From positions 1-63,767 of the forward strand of contig DYGU01000008.1 in the NCBI GenBank assembly GCA_020724525.1: DNA of 63,767 nt, given 5' to 3'. Each line of letters begins with the position of its first letter. Position 1 is the stretch's first letter. The position numbers were made by a program, and so were the translations under genes. Below are positions 29,179 through 45,935 of this stretch, in pieces. The notes beneath the pieces are model-generated. The model was not told where the DNA came from. It ran no database searches and saw nothing but the letters and a program-made list of their open reading frames with translations. This DNA comes from Dehalococcoides mccartyi. Lineage in GTDB: Bacteria > Chloroflexota > Dehalococcoidia > GIF9 > DYGU01.

Positions 29179-30085
29179 CTACTTTTGCCGAGCTTGCCAC
29201 TCCTCACTATTGGGAAAGAAAAGGGACTGTCCATATTTGTCCTTGCCAAACTCAGCAAGCCTTTTTTGAGTTTCATAGTCACATAAATAATTGATAAGCT
29301 TTATAGCTAAGTTATATTGAACGCGGGGGTGTTTCTGGGGACTGACGGCAATGACGCTATAAGGGTTAAATAGCCTTTCATCACCCTCTAGCAGAATAAT
29401 CAGGCTTAGTCCCTTTTGCGACAGGAATGTCCCCCCGGTCGGAAAGAGTATAAGCCTGTTTTTTATTAGTCACATTGAGAGCCTCCCCCATACCCTGTCC
29501 CAGGGACTGATAACGCCCCTCGAACTCTCCAGTTTTACCTTCTATCACCCACTGGTAACGCTGTCCAGCCGGGAGTGGCATAATTCCGGTTTCCTTCCAG
29601 ATGGCTTTTTCTGTGGTATGAGTTCCGGATTCATCACCTCGGGATATGAAAAACGCGCCTTCTGTTTGGGCAAGCCTGATAAAAGCCTGGACTACCTCTT
29701 TCATTCCCTCGATTCGTGCCGGGTCAGATTTGGGACCGACGATAACGAAATCGTTATACATTACCTGTCGCCGGTTTGTGCCATAGCCATCCTTAATAAA
29801 TTTCTCTTCTTTCTCCGTGTCATGTACCAAGATAGCATCCACATCGCCCCTTTCCCTGAGCTTAATAGCCTGCCCGGTGCCTACAGCTACCACTTTTACT
29901 TTAACATTATTTTCCTTTTCAAAAGCAGGCAAAATGTAATCAAGAAGTCCAGAATCGGCGGTACTGGTCGTAGTAGCCAAAGTCAGAGTTCGGTGTTGAG
30001 GTGAACAGCCTATTAGTAGACTAAGAATTAAAATTAAAGATGGAAGGTTGAAGAATTTAACCGGAGGGATAAACGGCCCTTTCAA
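29179..30085 (-). pseudogene. Tungstate-binding lipoprotein (TupA-like), frameshifted
   Basis: Periplasmic-type substrate-binding protein. TTG 30085 has a strong GGAAAGGAG site and gives a lipoprotein signal (LILILSLLIGC) followed by LTLATTTSTADSGLLDYILP, the hallmark of TupA, and SRGDESGTHTTEKAIW. The frame shifts in a run of six G (complement of 29431-29436; five restores it), after which the other frame reads LSLIILLEGDERLFNPYSVI to a stop at 29179. About 300 aa if corrected. The shift may be real or a homopolymer error. Confidence 0.85.
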
Positions 30086-30090
30086 TTGCT

Positions 30091-30186
30091 CTCCTTTCCA
30101 AACACGGGAGGCACCACCGTTTCCAGTGATACCCATAGCGACCTGAGTCCGTGGAATGCCCTTTAGGACTCAAGGTTCGGAAAGCT
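30091..30186 (-). promoter_or_regulatory. Moco/tungsten-cofactor (Moco RNA family) riboswitch
   Basis: The minus-strand leader of tupA has the signature CACTGGAAACGGTGGTGCCTCCC (as CACTGGAAAC and GGTGGTGCCTCCC) together with CCGAACC, AGGTCGC and a GAGTCC/GGACTC hairpin, which I recognise as the Moco RNA motif. An outer stem CTTTCC (30179-30184) with GGAAAG (30094-30099) would overlap the AAAGGAG ribosome site of tupA, so ligand binding is likely to reduce translation. In known cases such RNAs control molybdate or tungstate uptake and cofactor genes. Confidence 0.85.
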
Positions 30187-30281
30187 TAAAAGCCAGTTTA
30201 GCATGGCTGAAGTTTTGGGTCAAGCCAATGTACTGTGAATGTTTATTAACAGTATATTGTCACTCTGAGCCAATAGCGAAC

Positions 30282-30310
30282 TTGACAAACAAAATATTTT
30301 GTGCTATTTT
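30282..30310 (+). promoter_or_regulatory. Promoter of the aromatic (aro) operon
   Basis: TTGACA (30282-30287), 17-base spacer, TATTTT (30305-30310). It lies 34 bases upstream of the leader peptide start codon and precedes all attenuator parts. Confidence 0.75.
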
Positions 30311-30343
30311 TATTTCACTTTTAAGCGAGTTAAAGGTAGAAAA

Positions 30344-30445
30344 ATGTCAATTGGCAGTGCTCTCCAAGGTTTGTTTAGCAGATATTACTTCTATATTTTG
30401 GTTCCGGCGAAGACGCTTGGGGGGCTCTGCCATGAAGAATACTAA
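30344..30445 (+). CDS. Aromatic leader peptide controlling aro operon
   Basis: A 33-codon frame starting at ATG 30344 with an AAAGGTAG site. It reads MSIGSALQGLF-S-R-Y-Y-F-Y-ILVPAK and ends HEEY-TAA. Four of five codons at positions 13-17 include Tyr-Tyr-Phe-Tyr, and Phe11 precedes them: a dense Phe/Tyr control region as in pheA and aro leader peptides. Stalling there would leave the downstream GCTTGGGGGG (30415-30424) free to pair with CCCTCCAAGC (30481-30490). The stop at 30443-30445 puts a finishing ribosome over that segment's neighbourhood. Confidence 0.85.
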   Translation: MSIGSALQGLFSRYYFYILVPAKTLGGLCHEEY

Positions 30446-30471
30446 TTCATAATATCCATAAACAAAGTTAA

Positions 30472-30508
30472 AAGGAAGAACCCTCCAAGCGGGGGGTTCT
30501 TCCTTTTT
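30472..30508 (+). terminator. Attenuator terminator of the aro operon
   Basis: A 13-bp stem GGAAGAACCCTCC (30474-30486), loop AAGC, GGGGGGTTCTTCC (30491-30503), followed by TTTTT: a strong intrinsic terminator placed 29 bases after the leader stop and before aroF. The alternative pairing of 30415-30424 with 30481-30490 (10 bp, one G-U) removes the left arm, giving an antiterminator. Confidence 0.92.
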
Positions 30509-30536
30509 AAGAAAAATATAGTACGGAGGTGAAAAA

Positions 30537-31622
30537 GTGATAATAATGAAAACTGAAGCCACCGAGAAGCAAATAGACCGGGTAGTAAAAGAAATAAGGA
30601 AGTATGGTCTGAGGGCTGATGTTTCACGGGGGGAATTCAAGACAGTAATTGGATTAATTGGGGATGAGAGAAAAATACCCTTTGACCATTTTGCGGCTCT
30701 TCCCGGGGTAAAGGAGGTGATTAAAATTGAAATTCCCTACAAGCTCATTAGCCGAGAATATCACAAGTTTTTTGAAGGGTTAGAGAGTGGTACTAAGGTA
30801 GTAGAGATAGGAAACGTTAGGATAGGGAATAATGAGCTAATAGTTATGGCGGGGCCTTGTGCCGTTGAGAGTAAAAAACAACTGTTTAGAATCGCCGAGG
30901 GGGTGAAGAAAGCTGGGACTCATATCCTAAGAGGTGGTGTTTTTAAACCCAGGAGTTCAGTTCATTCTTTTCAGGGACTTGGGGCAATAGACTGGGAAAC
31001 AGCAGAAAAAGCGTTGATGTGGTTGAAAGAGACGGGGGAAGAGTTTGAACTTCCAGTAGTGACCGAGGTAAGAGGAGAAGCCTACGTTGATTTAGTGGCA
31101 GAATATGCTGACATCCTTCAGATAGGTGCAAGAAACATGTATAACCAAGACCTTCTCACCACGGTAGCGAGAAAGAAGAAACCCGTCTTACTAAAGAGAC
31201 ATTTTGGTGCCAGTATTGAGGAATTTTTGTCTTTTGCCGAATACATTGCTGCCGAGGGCAATAAAGATATCATTTTATGCGAACGGGGAATAGTACCGGT
31301 AGGTAAGGGCAGAGAATATACCAGGTATACCCTCGACCTGGCTGCCATCCCCGCAATTCGAAAAGAAACTTATTTACCTATTATCGCTGACCCCAGTCAT
31401 GGAACAGGTCGTAGGAACCTTATCTTCAATATGAGCTGTGCTGCTGTAGCTGCTGGGGCTCACGGATTGATGATTGAAGTACATTATAATCCTTTGGAAG
31501 CATTAGTTGATGGTCAACAGGCAATCACCCCCGACGAGCTTGAAAACATAATTAAAGCGTGTCGAGAAATTAGCCAAATAATCGGGTCTAAAATGAATGA
31601 AAGTCAGACTGATATTAGATGA
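30537..31622 (+). CDS. aroF: 3-deoxy-7-phosphoheptulonate (DAHP) synthase, AroA-I-beta type
   Basis: First shikimate pathway enzyme: PEP plus erythrose-4-phosphate to DAHP. The N-terminal ferredoxin-like regulatory domain (about 1-70, with a KLISREY linker) is typical of the I-beta class; the barrel has MAGPCAVES, RGGVFKPRSSVHSFQGLG, LLKRHFGAS and IADPSHGTGRR. 361 aa. GTG start at 30537 with GGAGGT six bases upstream; an ATG at 30546 is an alternative. First gene after the attenuator. Confidence 0.96.
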   Translation: MIIMKTEATEKQIDRVVKEIRKYGLRADVSRGEFKTVIGLIGDERKIPFDHFAALPGVKEVIKIEIPYKLISREYHKFFEGLESGTKVVEIGNVRIGNNELIVMAGPCAVESKKQLFRIAEGVKKAGTHILRGGVFKPRSSVHSFQGLGAIDWETAEKALMWLKETGEEFELPVVTEVRGEAYVDLVAEYADILQIGARNMYNQDLLTTVARKKKPVLLKRHFGASIEEFLSFAEYIAAEGNKDIILCERGIVPVGKGREYTRYTLDLAAIPAIRKETYLPIIADPSHGTGRRNLIFNMSCAAVAAGAHGLMIEVHYNPLEALVDGQQAITPDELENIIKACREISQIIGSKMNESQTDIR

Positions 31623-32707
31623 GAAAAATTAAGGTAAGGCTCGGCAATAATAGTTATGAAATCTATATAGGCTCAGGCATACTTTCCAAAGTGGGATACT
31701 GGCTTAAAGAAAAAGGCTTTATTGGTAAAATAGTAATTATCACCAATCCCATAGCGAAAGAGCTGCATGGTGATACTTTACAGGAGGCACTCATCCGAGA
31801 AAACTTCGATGTTGTTCTTTTGTTGGTTCCTGATGGGGAAGAACAGAAATCTTTAGAAACTGCCGCCAGACTATATGAGGAGCTATCCAATTTTGGTGCT
31901 GAAAGACTAACACCTATTTTAGCTTTAGGTGGTGGAGTTATTGGTGACTTAGCTGGATTCGTGGCTGCCACTTACTTGCGCGGTGTGCCTCTTGTTCAAA
32001 TACCGACTACCTTGCTTGCCCAAGTTGACAGCAGTATTGGTGGTAAAGTAGCTATAGACTACAATAAATTGAAAAATAGGATCGGGGCATTCTACCAACC
32101 GAAGTTAGTAGTCACAGACATCACTACCTTACAAACTCTTCCTGCTCAAGAAATTAGTGACGGCTTAGCCGAGACCATAAAGTACGCAGTGATTCGGGAT
32201 AAACAGTTTTTCACCTATCTTGAGCAGAACCTTGACAAGATAAAATCACTGGATAATGTAGCTCTGGAGGAGGTTATTTTTAAGTCAGCTAAGATTAAGG
32301 CTGAAATAGTCGAGAAAGATGAAAAAGACTTAGGTCTGAGGAATATCTTGAATTATGGTCACACCGTAGGGCACGCTATTGAAACAGCATCAGATTTTAA
32401 AGTGAGACACGGTCAGGCAGTGGCTATCGGTATGGTAACTGAAGGAAGGATATCTAACATGCTTGGTATACTTAGTAGAAGTGACTTGATTAGGCTGAGG
32501 AACCTTATCAAAAAAGCAGACTTACCAGTAGAAATTTCCAATCTTAATGTAAATAAGGTAATACAGGCGATTAAACACGACAAGAAGATTTTTAAAGGCA
32601 AAATAAGATTTATCCTACCGAAGTCTATAGGGAGTGTGTTTATCTCAGACGAGGTAACTCTCGAGTTAATTGAACGGGTTTTGGTAGGTAGGTATGAAGA
32701 AGCCTAA
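31619..32707 (+). CDS. aroB: 3-dehydroquinate synthase
   Basis: NAD-dependent cyclisation of DAHP to 3-dehydroquinate. Motifs: PDGEEQKS, GGGVIGDLAGFVAATYLRGV, PTTLLAQVDSSIGGK and NYGHTVGHAIE with metal-binding histidines. 362 aa. ATG 31619 overlaps the aroF stop by 4 bases (ATGA). Second gene of the operon. Confidence 0.97.
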   Translation: MRKIKVRLGNNSYEIYIGSGILSKVGYWLKEKGFIGKIVIITNPIAKELHGDTLQEALIRENFDVVLLLVPDGEEQKSLETAARLYEELSNFGAERLTPILALGGGVIGDLAGFVAATYLRGVPLVQIPTTLLAQVDSSIGGKVAIDYNKLKNRIGAFYQPKLVVTDITTLQTLPAQEISDGLAETIKYAVIRDKQFFTYLEQNLDKIKSLDNVALEEVIFKSAKIKAEIVEKDEKDLGLRNILNYGHTVGHAIETASDFKVRHGQAVAIGMVTEGRISNMLGILSRSDLIRLRNLIKKADLPVEISNLNVNKVIQAIKHDKKIFKGKIRFILPKSIGSVFISDEVTLELIERVLVGRYEEA

Positions 32708-33353
32708 GATTTGTGCTGTCACGGTAGACAACAATTTAGCTATGGTGAGAGAAGTCGAGAACTTTGTCGATTTATTTGAAGTTCGCATAGATCTTGTCGG
32801 CGATGGCTGGCAAGAATTAGCCAAGAAACTAAACAAACCGTGGATAGCTTCTAATAGAAATGAGGGTGAAGGTGGGCAATGGAGGAAGAGTGAAGGGGAA
32901 AGAATAGAAGAGCTTCTCTTGGCCAGTGGGTTAGGGGCGGACCTGATTGATATTGAATTGGGGACGATAAATTTAGCTGAAACCATACGTCTAATTAAGA
33001 GGCAGGCAAAATGCCTTCTATCCTTTCATGATTTGAAAGGGACGCCACCTCTTGGTCAGCTGAAAGAAATAGTTCAATACCAATTAGCTGTTGGTGCCGA
33101 TATATGCAAAGTGATTACTACGGCTCAAAAGTTTGACGACAATTTTACTGTCTTACAGCTAATCTCCGAATTCCCTGACATAGAAATAATTTCCTTTGCC
33201 ATGGGCCCTTTGGGGTTAGTAAGCAGAATTCTTTGCCCACTGGTTGGGGGTAGCTTTACCTACGCATCAATTGGAGAAGGCAAGGAGTCTGCCTCCGGCC
33301 AGATACCGGTAATGGATTTATACCAAATCTACACATTGCTAAAAAGATGCTAA
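32694..33353 (+). CDS. aroD: Type I 3-dehydroquinate dehydratase
   Basis: Schiff-base dehydratase converting 3-dehydroquinate to 3-dehydroshikimate. The 219-aa product shows VDLFEVRIDL near the N-terminus, SFHDLKGTPP near 105, and the catalytic lysine in DICKVITTAQ near 140. It overlaps the end of aroB by 14 bases. It is shorter than the 250-aa enterobacterial form but within range. Confidence 0.94.
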   Translation: MKKPKICAVTVDNNLAMVREVENFVDLFEVRIDLVGDGWQELAKKLNKPWIASNRNEGEGGQWRKSEGERIEELLLASGLGADLIDIELGTINLAETIRLIKRQAKCLLSFHDLKGTPPLGQLKEIVQYQLAVGADICKVITTAQKFDDNFTVLQLISEFPDIEIISFAMGPLGLVSRILCPLVGGSFTYASIGEGKESASGQIPVMDLYQIYTLLKRC

Positions 33354-34219
33354 ACTGGTCAATATCAGGAAAAACAAAACTTTGTGGAGTGATTGGCGAC
33401 CCTATAGAGCATAGTATGTCTCCAGTAATGTATAACGCAGCCTTCATAGAATTGAGGCTAAATTACATATATGTTCCTTTTAAGGTAAGGAAAGAGGACT
33501 TAAGTAAAGCTATAGAAGGTGTGAGAGCACTAAACATCAAAGGGCTTAACGTTACTATTCCGCACAAGATTGCTGTCACCCAATTTTTAGATGAGCTGGA
33601 TCCTCTGGCAGAGAACATAGGCGCAGTTAACACGATTGTTAATAATGATGGCATTCTGAAGGGCTATAATACAGATGCCTTGGGGTTTCTACAAACTTTA
33701 CTCGAAAAGGGGATTGAACTAAAAGGAGAAAAGGTGGTCATCCTTGGGGCTGGTGGAGCTTCAAGGGCAATTTCTTTCCTCTTAGCACAGAGAGGCGCTA
33801 ATTTGCTCATCTTGAATAGGACGCTGGATAAAGCAAAGGAATGCGCAGACAGAGTTTCTAATGTTTTCCAAAGAGAAGTTAAAGCTTTGGCACTTAATAG
33901 ACAAAATCTAATAAGAGCTCTGAAGGAGGCTGATATCTTGGTCAATACTACTAACGTGGGTATGAGTCCCAATACCGAGACAACATTAGTTACATCTGAC
34001 TTGATTAAACCTCACCTCATTGTCTTTGACATAGTGTATAATCCTATTAAAACGAAGTTACTAATGGAAGCTGACAAAGCTGGGGCGCAAACTATATCAG
34101 GAGCTGAAATGTTGGTCTGGCAAGGGGCTTTAGCCTTTGAGAAGTGGACTACGCTTAAGGCTCCTATTGAGCTAATGAGGAAAAAAGTAATCAACGAACT
34201 TGAACGGCGTGAAAACTAA
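33347..34219 (+). CDS. aroE: Shikimate dehydrogenase
   Basis: NADPH-dependent reduction of 3-dehydroshikimate to shikimate. Substrate site SMSPVMYNAAF and catalytic lysine in NVTIPHK near residue 70; Rossmann motif GAGGASRA near 132; LVNTTNVGM and MLVWQGALAFE near the C-terminus. 290 aa. ATG 33347 overlaps the aroD end by 7 bases. Confidence 0.96.
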   Translation: MLNWSISGKTKLCGVIGDPIEHSMSPVMYNAAFIELRLNYIYVPFKVRKEDLSKAIEGVRALNIKGLNVTIPHKIAVTQFLDELDPLAENIGAVNTIVNNDGILKGYNTDALGFLQTLLEKGIELKGEKVVILGAGGASRAISFLLAQRGANLLILNRTLDKAKECADRVSNVFQREVKALALNRQNLIRALKEADILVNTTNVGMSPNTETTLVTSDLIKPHLIVFDIVYNPIKTKLLMEADKAGAQTISGAEMLVWQGALAFEKWTTLKAPIELMRKKVINELERREN

Positions 34220-34745
34220 CATAGCTCTGATAGGTTTCATGGGGGTGGGGAAAACAGCTGTGGGGAAGGCTTTAGCCGAAAGGCTAAATTGGAAATTCAT
34301 TGAGATGGATTTGCTGATTGAGCGCAAAGCAGGTAAAACCATAGCGGAGATATTTCGTCAGGATGGTGAAATAGCTTTTCGTGAACTTGAAATTGATGTT
34401 ACCAAGGAAGTCTCGCAAGGGGACAATAGGATTATCGCCTGCGGCGGTGGGATAGTCCTCAACCAAATAAACATTGACAGGTTGAAGCAGAAATCTGTGA
34501 TAATTTACCTCACTGCATCTCCAATAGTTATTTTGAAGCGAATACAAAACAGCGGGGACGAAAGACCGCTGCTTAAAACACCTGACAAAACTTTGAAAAT
34601 TCGAGAGCTTTTAAAAATCAGAAAGCCCCTTTATGAGCAGGTAGCAGACATCAAGGTAGATACCTCTAGGCTTAATACTGACTCTGTTGTCGGAGAAGTA
34701 ATAAGCAAGCTGAAAGAACATGAAAGTTTCAATTTGTCAAAGTGA
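34200..34745 (+). CDS. aroK: Shikimate kinase
   Basis: Phosphorylates shikimate at the 3-hydroxyl. P-loop GFMGVGKTAVGKAL near residue 12, shikimate-binding DLLIERKAG and FRELE, ACGGG, and the lid segment SGDERPLL. The 181-aa frame begins at TTG 34200 within aroE; GTG 34209 (giving MKTNIALIGFMG) is equally possible, and neither has a clear ribosome site, so translation probably depends on coupling to aroE. Confidence 0.95.
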   Translation: MNGVKTNIALIGFMGVGKTAVGKALAERLNWKFIEMDLLIERKAGKTIAEIFRQDGEIAFRELEIDVTKEVSQGDNRIIACGGGIVLNQINIDRLKQKSVIIYLTASPIVILKRIQNSGDERPLLKTPDKTLKIRELLKIRKPLYEQVADIKVDTSRLNTDSVVGEVISKLKEHESFNLSK

Positions 34746-35988
34746 AGTAAAAGGAAGGGTAAAGGCACCTTATTCTAAGAGTTACACTATTCGAGGCTTG
34801 GTATGTGCTGCTTTAGCCAGAGGTCAAAGTAAGATTATAAATCCTCTGATTTCAGATGATACTCAAGTGTCTCTAAATGTGTTGAACAAGGTTGGAATCC
34901 AAGTTCATCAAAAAGGGAACCACTGGCAGGTCATCGGAGGTGATTTTCATGAACCGGCTGAAGAGCTCTTTTGTGGTGAATCAGCAGCGACTTTAAGGTT
35001 TATGACTGCTATCTGTTCACTAATTTCCGGAAAATCCCGACTCACTGCTGGACACTCCCTTTCGAAAAGACCAGTCGGTCTCTTAGTCCAAGCCCTTAGG
35101 CAGTTAGAGGTAAATTGCTCCTGTTATGATAATGAAGTCCCGGTGATAGTTGAGGGGGGTAGACTAAGGGGTGGGGTGGTTGAATTGCCGGGCAATATTA
35201 GCTCTCAGTTCGTATCAGCATTATTGTTTATATCGCCTTTCGCTGCTGAGGGTGTCAAAATTAAATTAACTACACCATTAGAATCAAGACCCTTCATATT
35301 GATGACCTTAGATTGTCTGGAAAAGTTCGGGATAAAAGTAAAGTCCTCCCCAGACCTCAGGGAATTTGAAGTTGGGAAACAAACTTATAAGCCAACGGAA
35401 TTTGTGGTGGAAGGAGATTGGTCATCGGCTTCATACCTGTTAGCCTTGGGGGCTGGTGCTGGAGAGGTAAAAGTGGAGAACCTGAATTCAGAAAGTTCAC
35501 AAGGCGACAAGGTGATACTAACCCTTTTAAAAAACATGGGTGCTTTGGTTGAAACAGACCGAGATTCGATAACGGTAAAGAAATCAACGTTGAATGCCAT
35601 ACGAGCTGACCTTTCGGACTGTATAGACCTTCTACCAACAATGACAGCTCTGGCAGCAGTGGCAGAAGGAGTAAGCGAATTTACTGGAATTGAAAGGGCG
35701 CGAATAAAGGAATCCGACAGAGTTTCCGCATTACGGGAAGGGTTGGAAAGAATGGGCATAAAAGTTAGTGAAAGAAAAGATAAGTTGACTATTGTTGGTG
35801 CCAGCCCCAAAGGCGCGACTATAGATGTAAAGGGAGACCACAGAATTGCCATGGCTTTCGGTGTCCTTGGTGCCCTATCCGGGGGAAAGACAATAATAAA
35901 TAATGCTGAATGTGTTTCAAAGACATTTCCAGAGTTCTGGGATGTATTAAGAAACGTTGGAGTTGAGGTGGAAACAAATGGGAAATAG
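34720..35988 (+). CDS. aroA: 3-phosphoshikimate 1-carboxyvinyltransferase (EPSP synthase)
   Basis: Transfers enolpyruvyl from PEP to shikimate-3-phosphate. [10 protein letters not shown] near the N-terminus holds the substrate Lys/Ser; [10 protein letters not shown] near 87, [13 protein letters not shown], and [36 protein letters not shown] follow in order. 422 aa, normal length. Overlaps aroK by 26 bases. The first active-site loop has E-S-A-A-T-L-R in place of the commoner NAGTxxR, as in class II-type enzymes, which are often glyphosate tolerant. Confidence 0.95.
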
Positions 35989-37069
35989 TTTAGGCAAGCT
36001 CTTTGTAGTGACCAGCTTTGGCGAAAGTCACGGTATATGTGTAGGTACCATCATAGAAGGGTGTCCCGCAGGTCTACCAATCACGGTTGAAGATATTCAA
36101 AGGGAGGTAGATAAAAGAAAACCGCAAACAAGTATAGCTGCTACACAAAGAATAGAGGAAGACAAAGTCGAGATTCTGTCTGGTGTCTTTAACGGAATTA
36201 CTACCGGCGCTCCTATCTGCCTGTTGATATGGAATAAAGATATTGATTCGAGTGAGTATGAAAAAATGAAAATCACCCCCAGACCTGGTCACGCCGATTA
36301 TACTGCCTTCATGAAATATGGGGGATTCAATGACTTCCGAGGCGGGGGCAGGTTCTCAGGAAGAATCACCCTTACTTTTGTCACGGCTGGTGCTATTGCC
36401 AAGAAGTTACTCAATCTTAGGGGCATTGAAGTCCTGGCTCATGCTGTTGAGATAGGTGGAGTAAAAGCCAAACCGAAGGGATTTGATGAAATAAGAGAGA
36501 GCGTTGGAAAAAACCCGCTCAAGTGCGCTGACGCGGAAGCTATTGAAGCGATGGCTAAAGCTATTGAAAGAGCTAAAGAGGAAGGTGATAGTATTGGAGG
36601 TGTAATAGAGGGCATTGCCCTCAATGTGCCTGTTGGTTTAGGAGAACCGGTCTTTGATACACTGGAGGGAGACTTAGCTAAAGCTCTTTTTGCTATTCCA
36701 GCTGTTAAAGGGGTCGAGTTCGGCTCAGGTTTCTCAGCCGCACAGAAAAAGGGGTCAGAAAATAATGATGTGTTTATTATTAAGAATGACAAGATAGTTG
36801 CTACTACCAACAACGCTGGTGGCATTCTCGGTGGGATAAGTAATGGTATGCCAATAGTCGTCCGAGTTGCGATTAAGCCAGTATCTTCCATACGTAAGAT
36901 CCAGGAGACCATTGACATTAAAACGGGGGAAAAAGTCAATCTGTTGCTTGGGGGAAGACACGATGTTTGTATTGTTCCGAGGGCAGTTGTTGTTGTTGAA
37001 GCGATGATAGCAGTAACTCTTTGTGACTTTGCTATGAGAGCTGAATTGCTTCCGAGGGTAATAAAATGA
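35978..37069 (+). CDS. aroC: Chorismate synthase
   Basis: Final common step: EPSP to chorismate, needing reduced flavin. Motifs: [49 protein letters not shown] and [18 protein letters not shown] chose ATG 35978 ([19 protein letters not shown], 363 aa), which has GAGGTGG upstream; a TTG at 35957 would extend into aroA unnecessarily. Overlaps the aroA end by 11 bases. Confidence 0.97.
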
Positions 37070-38133
37070 GTTTAGAAAATTTAAGAAGAAAAATAGATGA
37101 AATCGATGTGGAGATAGTCAAACTCATTGTTGAGCGTATAAGAATTACCCAAGAAATAGGCAAGGAGAAAAAGGAAAAAGGTAAGGAGATTGAGGATAGG
37201 GAGCGAGAGCAAATAGTCTTGGAAAATGTGAGAAGTATTGCCCGAGAAAAAAGAGTGAGCCAGGAAGATATCGAAGGCATTTACAAGCAAATAATGACAG
37301 TATGCAAAAGGATGCAAGGTATTGAAGTTGCTTTTCAAGGCGAAATTGGTGCTTATAGTGAGGAGGCAGCCTTTTGCTTTTTTGGCTCTTCAATTCAACT
37401 CAGACCTTGTGAGAGCTTGGATGAAGTCTTCAAAGTCGTGCAAGATGGTTACGCGCCTTATGGGGTTGTTCCTATAGAGAATTCTTTGGAAGGAAGTATA
37501 AGTCGGACATATGATTTGCTCTTAGACTCAGATGTTAAGGTATACGGTGAAATAGAGCTCAGAATTACCCATTGCTTAATAGCCGGTCCGCAAGCGCGGC
37601 TGGATTTGATAAGAGAGGTTTACTCCCATCCACAGGCTTTGGCTCAGTGTCAGAATTTTTTAAAACATTTGAATTGTAAATTAATCCCTACCTATGATAC
37701 TGCTGGCAGTGTGAAGATGATAAAGGAGAAAGGGATTACAGACGGAGCTGCTGTTGCCAGTGAGCGAGCTGCTGAAATTTACGGGATGAAAGTCCTTGCC
37801 AGGGAGATAGAGGACAATCCCAAAAATTTCACCAGATTTTTTGTTTTATCCAAACACGATTCTCCACCTACAGGAAATGATAAAACATCTGTAGTTTTCT
37901 CAGTGAAGCACAAACCGGGGGCGCTGTATAAAGCCCTTGCTGAATTTGCGGTTAGGGGCATTAACTTAACCAAGATTGAGTCCCGACCAACAAGACAAAA
38001 GCCGTGGGAGTACAATTTCTATCTGGATTTTGAAGGTAACCGGGATGACCCAGTAGTTCAACAAGCTTTAGAGGGCTTGGAAACAACTTCCCTCTTTGTA
38101 AAGGTGTTAGGTTCGTATCCTAAAGCCAAGTGA
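37066..38133 (+). CDS. pheA: Bifunctional chorismate mutase / prephenate dehydratase (P-protein)
   Basis: Converts chorismate to prephenate and then phenylpyruvate. AroQ-type mutase helix bundle (about 1-85: [20 protein letters not shown]), prephenate dehydratase domain (about 90-270) with [10 protein letters not shown] and the catalytic TRFFVLS, then an ACT domain (about 280-350) with KPGALYKAL and [17 protein letters not shown], the phenylalanine feedback site. 355 aa. ATG 37066 overlaps the aroC stop. Confidence 0.96.
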
Positions 38134-38154
38134 AGGCAATACCGGAGTGACATA

Positions 38155-39027
38155 GTGAAAAAAATAGCAATAATTGGTGGTTCTGGGAAAATGGGGCAAT
38201 GGTTTGCCAACTTCTTGCTCAAAGACGGCAAGAAGGTAATAATCACTGGACGAGACCAAAGAAAGCTTCTGGAAGTTAAGCAACAACTGGGGGCAGAGGT
38301 GGCTACTAATATCGAGGCGGTTAAAAGTGCCGACATAGTTCTGCTCTCAGTACCGATAGATAATTTTGAAGAAGTTGTTAAAGAAATTTGCCCCTATACA
38401 CGTTCGGAACAAGTTATTCTTGATATAACATCCATCAAAGTTTTCCCTGTTGAAACCATGCACAAGTATATAAAAGTGGGATTAGTGCTGGGGATGCATC
38501 CGATGTTTGGTCCTGGGGCGAAAGATATTAAAGGTCAAAACTTTGTCTTGACACCAAGTAACGAGGACGAAAAGGCTCTTGCTCGTAAAGTGGCAAAATA
38601 TTTAAAAATTAGAGGTGCCAGAACTATCTTTATGACTCCTCATAAACATGATGAACTGATGACCATTATTCTTGGGCTGTCCCATTTTATTGCTATCGTT
38701 TCTGCTGATACGTTGCTGAGTATTGATACACTAAAACAGACTAAAACCATTGGCGGGGTTACTTATAAGGTTTTACTGACATTGGTGGGGGCTGTTATTT
38801 CGGAAGCCCCAGAATTTTATGCCTCTTTGCAGATGAGTTTGCCCAGTATGAGGGAAATTGAGGAGCTTTTCCAAAGAAAGGCAAAATTATGGGCAGATTT
38901 AGTAAAGAATAGAGACAAGCAAAAATTCGTAAAAAGAATGAATAGCTTGAAAAACAGACTTGAGAAAGGCATTCCCGATTTTAATAAAGCCTATGAAAAT
39001 CTTTACCAGATTGTGGAAAGGCTATAG
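38155..39027 (+). CDS. tyrA: Prephenate dehydrogenase
   Basis: Oxidative decarboxylation of prephenate to 4-hydroxyphenylpyruvate for tyrosine. Rossmann motif IIGGSGKMGQWFANFL at the N-terminus, then SVPIDNFEEV, LDITSIK, GMHPMFGPGA and the helical dimer domain. 290 aa, no ACT domain visible. GTG start at 38155 with CCGGAGTGA upstream. Last gene of the operon, 72 bases from the convergent trpA end. Confidence 0.92.
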   Translation: MKKIAIIGGSGKMGQWFANFLLKDGKKVIITGRDQRKLLEVKQQLGAEVATNIEAVKSADIVLLSVPIDNFEEVVKEICPYTRSEQVILDITSIKVFPVETMHKYIKVGLVLGMHPMFGPGAKDIKGQNFVLTPSNEDEKALARKVAKYLKIRGARTIFMTPHKHDELMTIILGLSHFIAIVSADTLLSIDTLKQTKTIGGVTYKVLLTLVGAVISEAPEFYASLQMSLPSMREIEELFQRKAKLWADLVKNRDKQKFVKRMNSLKNRLEKGIPDFNKAYENLYQIVERL

Positions 39028-45644: not shown

Positions 45645-45935
45645 ATAAAATCCCCTCACCCATAGGGGCGAGGGGATTATCCTTCGCGGTGCCACCCTAC
45701 TTGATTGCCAGCTTTAGGCAACCATCTCTTTCAGGTATGGCTTCAGCATTTTAAAGCGATACCCTAAGCTCTGCTAACGGTGCTCACTCCGTCGAAGCCT
45801 ACTCAGAGAAAACCCTTTCGGTTCGCAGCTCCCGAGTCCATTCAGCCTCTGCGCCAGCACTGGCTCTCACCTTACCCAGCTCTCTGGGCTTCGCTGGAGG
45901 CATACTAGTCTCGTTCTCAGCCTTTTGCTTTTCTG
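45645..45935 (-). promoter_or_regulatory. T-box riboswitch (Trp specifier) of the trp operon
   Basis: On the minus strand the T-box sequence AGGGTGGCACCGCG (45698-45685) is exact. It is followed by the terminator hairpin AATCCCCTCGCCC...GGTGAGGGGATT and TTTTATTTTT (45678-45641). In the upstream stem I the GAATGGAC specifier region places UGG (Trp) at 45840-45838. Uncharged tRNA-Trp would pair and favour the antiterminator, allowing trpE expression. The 5' limit of stem I (about 45915-45935) is approximate. Confidence 0.93.

Follow-up and report, generated by a model that had tools for sequence, protein, structure and literature searches.

A predicted leader-peptide attenuator for tyrosine and phenylalanine ahead of the aro operon of Dehalococcoides mccartyi, and its relatives in Dehalococcoidia

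The stretch of Dehalococcoides mccartyi DNA analysed here, 63,767 nucleotides in length and hereafter called the window, very probably carries, ahead of a nine-gene shikimate-Phe-Tyr operon, a transcription attenuator of the classical ribosome-mediated kind, by which the charging of tRNA-Tyr and tRNA-Phe is sensed. The parts of this element, their conservation, the covariation of its antiterminator and its folding switch were obtained from the sequence and from comparison with related loci. The preliminary description of the region had proposed an attenuation of the aro operon that is relieved by Tyr or Phe starvation, and the comparative tests reported below support this proposal.

Organization of the leader region and the operon

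Direct reading of the window, together with a promoter scan, recovered the promoter, the 33-codon leader with its Phe11 and Tyr-Tyr-Phe-Tyr codons, the antiterminator strand complementary to 30481-30490 and the 13-bp terminator with its T5 tail, all at the places where they had been described before; the distance between the stall site and the antiterminator strand, given earlier as about 20 bases, is 20 nt. Two protector strands that were absent from the preliminary description complete, on the predicted pairing, a classical 1-2-3-4 attenuator. The features are, in order:

30282-30310 (+), sigma-70-type promoter TTGACA-17-TATTTT (-35 TTGACA at 30282-30287, 17-nt spacer, -10 TATTTT at 30305-30310), by direct reading and scan
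30344-30445 (+), leader peptide ORF MSIGSALQGLFSRYYFYILVPAKTLGGLCHEEY, 33 codons, from ATG at 30344 to the stop TAA ending at 30445
30360-30368 (+), strand 1, distal protector CTCTCCAAG, which pairs with strand 2, by folding and 1:2 complementarity
30374-30394 (+), sensor codons Phe11 (30374-30376) and Tyr14-Tyr15-Phe16-Tyr17 (30383-30394), by direct reading
30402-30409 (+), strand 1', proximal protector TTCCGGCG, in a local hairpin with CGCTTGGGG directly after the sensor codons
30415-30424 (+), strand 2, antiterminator 5' strand GCTTGGGGGG, 20 nt past the last sensor codon
30474-30490 (+), strand 3, terminator 5' arm (30474-30486) and loop AAGC (30487-30490), within which CCCTCCAAGC (30481-30490) is the partner of strand 2
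30491-30508 (+), strand 4, terminator 3' arm (30491-30503) and T5 tail (30504-30508), by direct reading and folding
30525-30529 (+), Shine-Dalgarno sequence GGAGG of aroF (GTG start at 30537), by direct reading
30537-39027 (+), operon aroF, aroB, aroD, aroE, aroK, aroA, aroC, pheA, tyrA, by NCBIfam matches and coordinates

The 13-bp terminator had a folding energy of -28 kcal/mol (z -5.95) and, with its U tract, lies ahead of the first structural gene. The segment 30355-30430 folded as one hairpin of -23.7 kcal/mol, and each of the two protector strands can pair with strand 2. Since the attenuator has such a protector (1:2) strand, untranslated RNA should terminate too. The nine genes of the proposed aro operon were confirmed by NCBIfam, with the pheA product assigned as chorismate mutase/prephenate dehydratase.

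A Moco/tungsten riboswitch (RF01055, 67.8 bits, window 30075-30194, minus strand) adjoins the aro leader and opens a gene that runs away from it; the product of this gene reads like a tungstate/molybdate-binding protein. At 30280-30540, several Rfam families (ohsC, NrrF and others) gave matches below their gathering score, which were taken as chance hairpin matches. The window genome also has T-boxes, at 45661-45927 (minus strand) ahead of the trp operon and at G000:C22:16716-16974 ahead of a trpB-like gene. A second copy of the switch is found in the same genome (G000:C2:63827-63957, minus strand, locus L143/L221; E 1.1e-13 with the model R2 described below), where it precedes a PLP aminotransferase gene broken into two frames. 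The V-Y-Y-F-F frame of this copy lacks a start codon, and there is a repeat immediately upstream; the copy is probably the remnant of an attenuator-gene unit that has decayed, or else it reflects an assembly error.

Conservation of the leader in related aroF loci

One scan of genome contigs yielded 80 related aroF loci, mostly from Dehalococcoidia metagenome-assembled genomes (MAGs), and the comparison set comprised 70 aroF upstream regions, namely the window and 69 relatives, nearly all of the latter being MAGs. A short ORF with a run of Tyr, Phe or Trp codons, rich in codons for the amino acids that the operon makes, was present in 69 of the 70 regions (for instance MVNCISARYFYAYYYFTPGHQSGGQCSIPENR or MLIYIVSRGWYYTYFTFPGRTRCAWEALV), with its translation predicted. 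The sole leaderless region (L100) came from an archaeal bin, and on a cursory look no comparable conserved leader was seen in the bathyarchaeotal aroF relatives (L101-L106). The preliminary description would have been contradicted by relatives lacking the leader frame or its Phe and Tyr codons; 69 of the 70 regions keep a Tyr/Phe-rich leader, and its spacing from a covarying antiterminator is almost fixed.

An in-frame octamer with a Tyr/Phe score of at least 5 was found in 88.6% of the 70 regions, as against 0.9% of dinucleotide shuffles. Across the loci the sensor codons were TAT (149), TAC (109), TTT (106), TTC (35) and TGG (29), and as both synonymous codons are used, it is the amino acid that is kept and not the nucleotide. 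The exact sequence TTGAC stood at promoter distance in 65 of 69 loci, and a Shine-Dalgarno-like sequence preceded only 24 of 69 leaders. The predicted transcription start lay at most 5 nt from the leader ATG at 18 of 66 loci (e.g. L032, L035, L038 and L099), so that translation of these 18 leader peptides may begin on leaderless mRNA. The gap between the final aromatic codon and strand 2 had a median length of 16 nt (IQR 14-17), which would bring strand 2 to the border of the region covered by a stalled ribosome; the sensor codons are thus placed so that stalling would free it.

Alternative pairing, covariation and folding

Each of the 69 leader-bearing loci has a terminator together with an upstream strand that can pair with the terminator's 5' arm and loop. 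The pairings 1:2, 2:3 and 3:4 are mutually exclusive, the 2:3 pairing being strongly supported and the 1:2 pairing modestly. The 2:3 duplex had a mean energy of -19.6 kcal/mol when both strands were taken from their own locus, compared with -15.7 kcal/mol for strands from different loci and -10.2 kcal/mol for shuffled strand-2 regions. None of 10,000 permutations was as good (the best permuted mean was -17.0 kcal/mol). Complementarity of strands 1 and 2 was likewise stronger when both came from one species than when they came from two (permutation p<1e-4).

The automatic RNAalifold consensus contained the terminator core only, and we therefore counted the antiterminator explicitly, as ten pairs in 66 sequences aligned by plain MAFFT. 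Of the antiterminator cells in this alignment 87.1% were paired, compared with 79.5% after shuffling, and double changes occupied 65 cells versus 23 in shuffles. The covariation score was 0.348, against 0.214 +/- 0.013 for shuffled alignments, and was reached by 0 of 500 shuffles; covariation among related aroF leaders, which had been put forward as a check on the attenuator proposal, was thereby found. When the partner strand was slid by 1-3 columns as a control, at most 63.1% of cells were paired and the score was at most 0.186. Pairs 58/147 and 59/146, which occur as UA, CG and GC, were among the best covarying, and because they use bases of the terminator loop, the terminator stem cannot account for them. 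Covariation of the local protector hairpin across 37 sequences was modest and weaker than that of the antiterminator (78.4% paired; score 0.221 against 0.185 +/- 0.014, reached by 4 of 500 shuffles).

Partition-function folds were calculated for RNA ending at strand 3, with or without a ribosome on the sensor codons. In the window, the expected number of antiterminator pairs was 12.7 with the ribosome in place and 0.005 in the free RNA. Across the loci, the antiterminator formed in 99% of cases upon stalling; by folding alone, about 62% of loci favoured it without a ribosome as well, so kinetics and a ribosome at the stop codon must act there. For a ribosome placed at the stop codon the calculation necessarily yields zero, and this value carries no evidential weight. 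The position of the stop codon varied across loci, and the idea that a distant stop codon needs a stronger protector was rejected (Spearman -0.14, p 0.27).

Proposed mechanism

From this arrangement we infer translation of the leader, ribosome stalling, termination in vivo and a response to starvation. With Tyr and Phe plentiful, the ribosome would pass the aromatic codons and strand 1 would hold strand 2, leaving strands 3 and 4 to form the intrinsic terminator, so that transcription would stop near 30508, before aroF. A shortage of charged tRNA-Tyr or tRNA-Phe would make the ribosome stall at codons 11-17 and cover the protector; strand 2 (30415-30424), lying just past the leading edge of the ribosome, could then pair with strand 3 (30481-30490), no terminator would form and the whole operon would be transcribed. 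The preliminary description had likened the region to enterobacterial pheA/trp attenuation, and all features of that logic that can be tested on sequence were found here.

An attenuator family with exchanged sensor codons

To search further genomes we used a covariance model of the relatives' leaders (R1) and a second one from which the aromatic columns were left out (R2), the E-values of both being rough. Within the order, R1 had matches in 35 of 84 genomes, and within the class in 70 of 393; R2 matched 17 of the 301 genomes taken from the phylum, and 16 of these belong to Dehalococcoidia. The window itself, which is among the training sequences, scored 77 bits with R1 (E 1.4e-13) and 57.4 bits with R2 (E 4.8e-14). 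Judged by these models, the window element is a member of a class-wide attenuator family in Dehalococcoidia. The single R2 match outside the class (L263, G571:C8:572-666, minus strand, E 1.1e-5) has a Leu/Val/Ile-rich ORF, MSRLVLSIVLAVLPLCGTDRARSGGGG.

A complete, single-contig Dehalococcoides-like genome of 1,469,720 bp (G176) has the leader MLNVKSFKNYYYFTKTSLLGR ahead of an aroF-to-tyrA operon arranged as in the window. In the same genome, MRYTGYAYFYFMFTGRTLCALSGAVDK heads an operon with genes for two AMP-binding ligases and for a liv-type ABC transporter, and three T-boxes are present, in agreement with PMC2494555. The model search also placed leaders ahead of some of the DAHP synthases of about 50% identity, a second type of DAHP synthase, hisC-like aminotransferases, an ABC permease gene with an SNF-family symporter gene behind it and, in pure poly-Phe form, acyl-CoA ligases. 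Leaders before AMP-binding CoA ligase genes, several of them pure poly-Phe, were seen at L126, L128, L131, L137, L139, L207, L213, L216 and L217; in the larger regions (L213, L216 and L217) the ligase gene stands first in an operon for a liv-type ABC transporter, which in some cases includes another ligase. Operons of this kind with poly-Phe leaders could serve Phe salvage from aryl acids. Five further Tyr/Phe leaders (L157, L172, L185, L189 and L196) stand before genes that are not obviously biosynthetic, among them those for a CaiB-type CoA transferase, a double-cubane/2-hydroxyacyl-CoA-dehydratase-like protein, a possible dehydrogenase and a possible solute-binding protein.

In other members the sensor codons are different. 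Leaders with a WWW run precede trpE, as identified by NCBIfam, at L246 and L247 (G004 and G020); these switches are weak R2 matches (E 0.005-0.007) outside its training set. Leaders ahead of ilvB, with ...GLILISIIIIV... and ...GLILSILIIV..., are rich in Ile, Leu and Val, and both sequences are part of the R2 training set, while the ilvE leader ...VVLVTIVVAAAILIV... was matched from outside that set (E 7.6e-9). The predicted sensor codons therefore match the genes they would control: YYFY for aro, WWW for trpE and Ile/Leu/Val for ilvB and ilvE. At another locus (L249, G037:C40:2357-2460) an ilvE-like gene is preceded by a similar switch with a Met/Thr-rich leader, MAIRMITTLATGAMMMRPMLTHGRTLPYSK, which perhaps senses Met or Thr.

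The only T-box found in G004 precedes a trpB-like gene, and trpE of that genome has the WWW leader. At L246 and L247 trpE thus stands behind a WWW leader, whereas the trp operon of the window genome stands behind a T-box. On this comparison, T-box and predicted leader peptide are exchanged for trp genes inside one order. Whether all these elements descend from one re-usable attenuator RNA ancestral in Dehalococcoidia is, in our judgement, an evenly balanced question. Under such a common origin, protector, antiterminator and terminator would have been kept and only the sensor codons exchanged (Tyr/Phe, WWW or Ile/Leu/Val), with swaps against T-boxes for trp genes; the Tyr/Phe-codon versions would comprise those of the aro operons, DAHP-synthase paralogues, transporters and acyl-CoA-ligase operons, and the ligase/ABC-transporter operons may be induced by starvation for Phe or Tyr and serve Phe/Tyr salvage from aryl acids.

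The exchange of sensor residues with the downstream pathway bears on the possibility that the leader RNA is itself a riboswitch or T-box, sensing Tyr, Phe or uncharged tRNA directly, with the small ORF being incidental. A terminator/antiterminator layout is common to such devices, and T-boxes do serve the trp operon and the trpB-like gene in the same genome; however, no T-box or riboswitch family matched at 30280-30540, the T-box of the window (RF00230) being found only at 45661-45927, and what is conserved is not an aptamer but Tyr/Phe codons with both of their synonyms, so that we regard direct sensing as very unlikely. We give hardly any credit to an arrest peptide of the TnaC type, in which the nascent leader peptide would sense free Tyr, Phe or another ligand in the ribosome. 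The C-terminal leader motifs that recur, GRTRCAWEALV and GRAGL, might be read as such a peptide, but their coding sequence is the RNA strand needed for pairing (GCGCUUGGGAGG) and they vary from clade to clade, and the aromatic run is free in order and length. An attenuator that acts constitutively or according to growth rate, without specificity for an amino acid, and whose aromatic codons merely reflect U-rich sequence near the promoter, would account for TTT/TAT-rich, and hence AT-rich, stretches, but is highly improbable in view of the excess of in-frame octamers over shuffles, the use of both T and C at the wobble position and the WWW and Ile/Leu/Val-rich leaders that occupy the same slot in the trpE and ilvB attenuators. 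Ribosome-mediated attenuation through Tyr and Phe codons is thus the reading we prefer.

Significance and comparison with known systems

Most reports of leader-peptide attenuation concern Proteobacteria and Actinobacteria, and the Firmicutes contribute isolated cases. A family across one class of Chloroflexota, including complete Dehalococcoides-like genomes, widens this phylogenetic range and provides a candidate regulator of amino-acid biosynthesis for dechlorinating bacteria, which grow slowly, and for bacteria of the subsurface. The similar scaffolds with Tyr/Phe, Trp or Ile/Leu/Val codons, and the interchange of T-box and leader peptide, make a natural series for studying the evolution of switches, and the sensor codons predict substrates of uncharacterised transporters and CoA ligases.

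According to a survey of 2010, no case had been demonstrated outside Proteobacteria and Actinobacteria before its own find in Firmicutes (PMC2965389), and in a survey of non-coding RNAs in 50 genomes the motif reported for Dehalococcoides was an rdhA motif and not an aro leader (PMC11109978). The preliminary description had considered such attenuation undescribed in Chloroflexota. In the literature searched we found no leader-peptide attenuator from this phylum, where the genome-wide survey of Lopatovskaya et al. (2010) could hold a prediction, and to that extent the claim stands; leader-peptide attenuation of DAHP-synthase operons as such is already known or proposed elsewhere (PMC11802643, PMC8632094).

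The T-box leaders of trp genes known in Dehalococcoides (PMC2494555) likewise control aromatic amino-acid genes by tRNA charging in the same class, but they bind tRNA directly and without a leader peptide, unlike the window leader. With enterobacterial pheL-pheA (RF01859) the window shares the 1-2-3-4 logic, the aromatic codons and the intrinsic terminator, and differs in sequence and operon; its leader scored 23.5 bits with the Rfam Phe_leader model, below the gathering threshold of 55, and no Rfam family covers the switch. By function, the closest systems are aroR-aroF of Corynebacterium glutamicum and the candidate uORFC-13-1 of Acholeplasma, both likened to the window by description. The latter is an upstream ORF before aroF with at least one Phe codon and an apparent terminator, known from 24 representatives in the genus Acholeplasma and environmental sequences (PMC8632094); the window, too, has an upstream ORF and a terminator before aroF. 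In the actinobacterial system, described by Neshat et al. (2014) and summarised in PMC11802643, a leader peptide with Phe-Tyr-Phe precedes a DAHP-synthase operon and stalling at the Phe/Tyr codons raises transcription, Phe limitation being effective and Tyr limitation not, whereas the window leader is dominated by Tyr and its operon runs through tyrA. The mechanism proposed here is accordingly classical, and what appears new is limited to the attenuator family and the phylum in which it is found.
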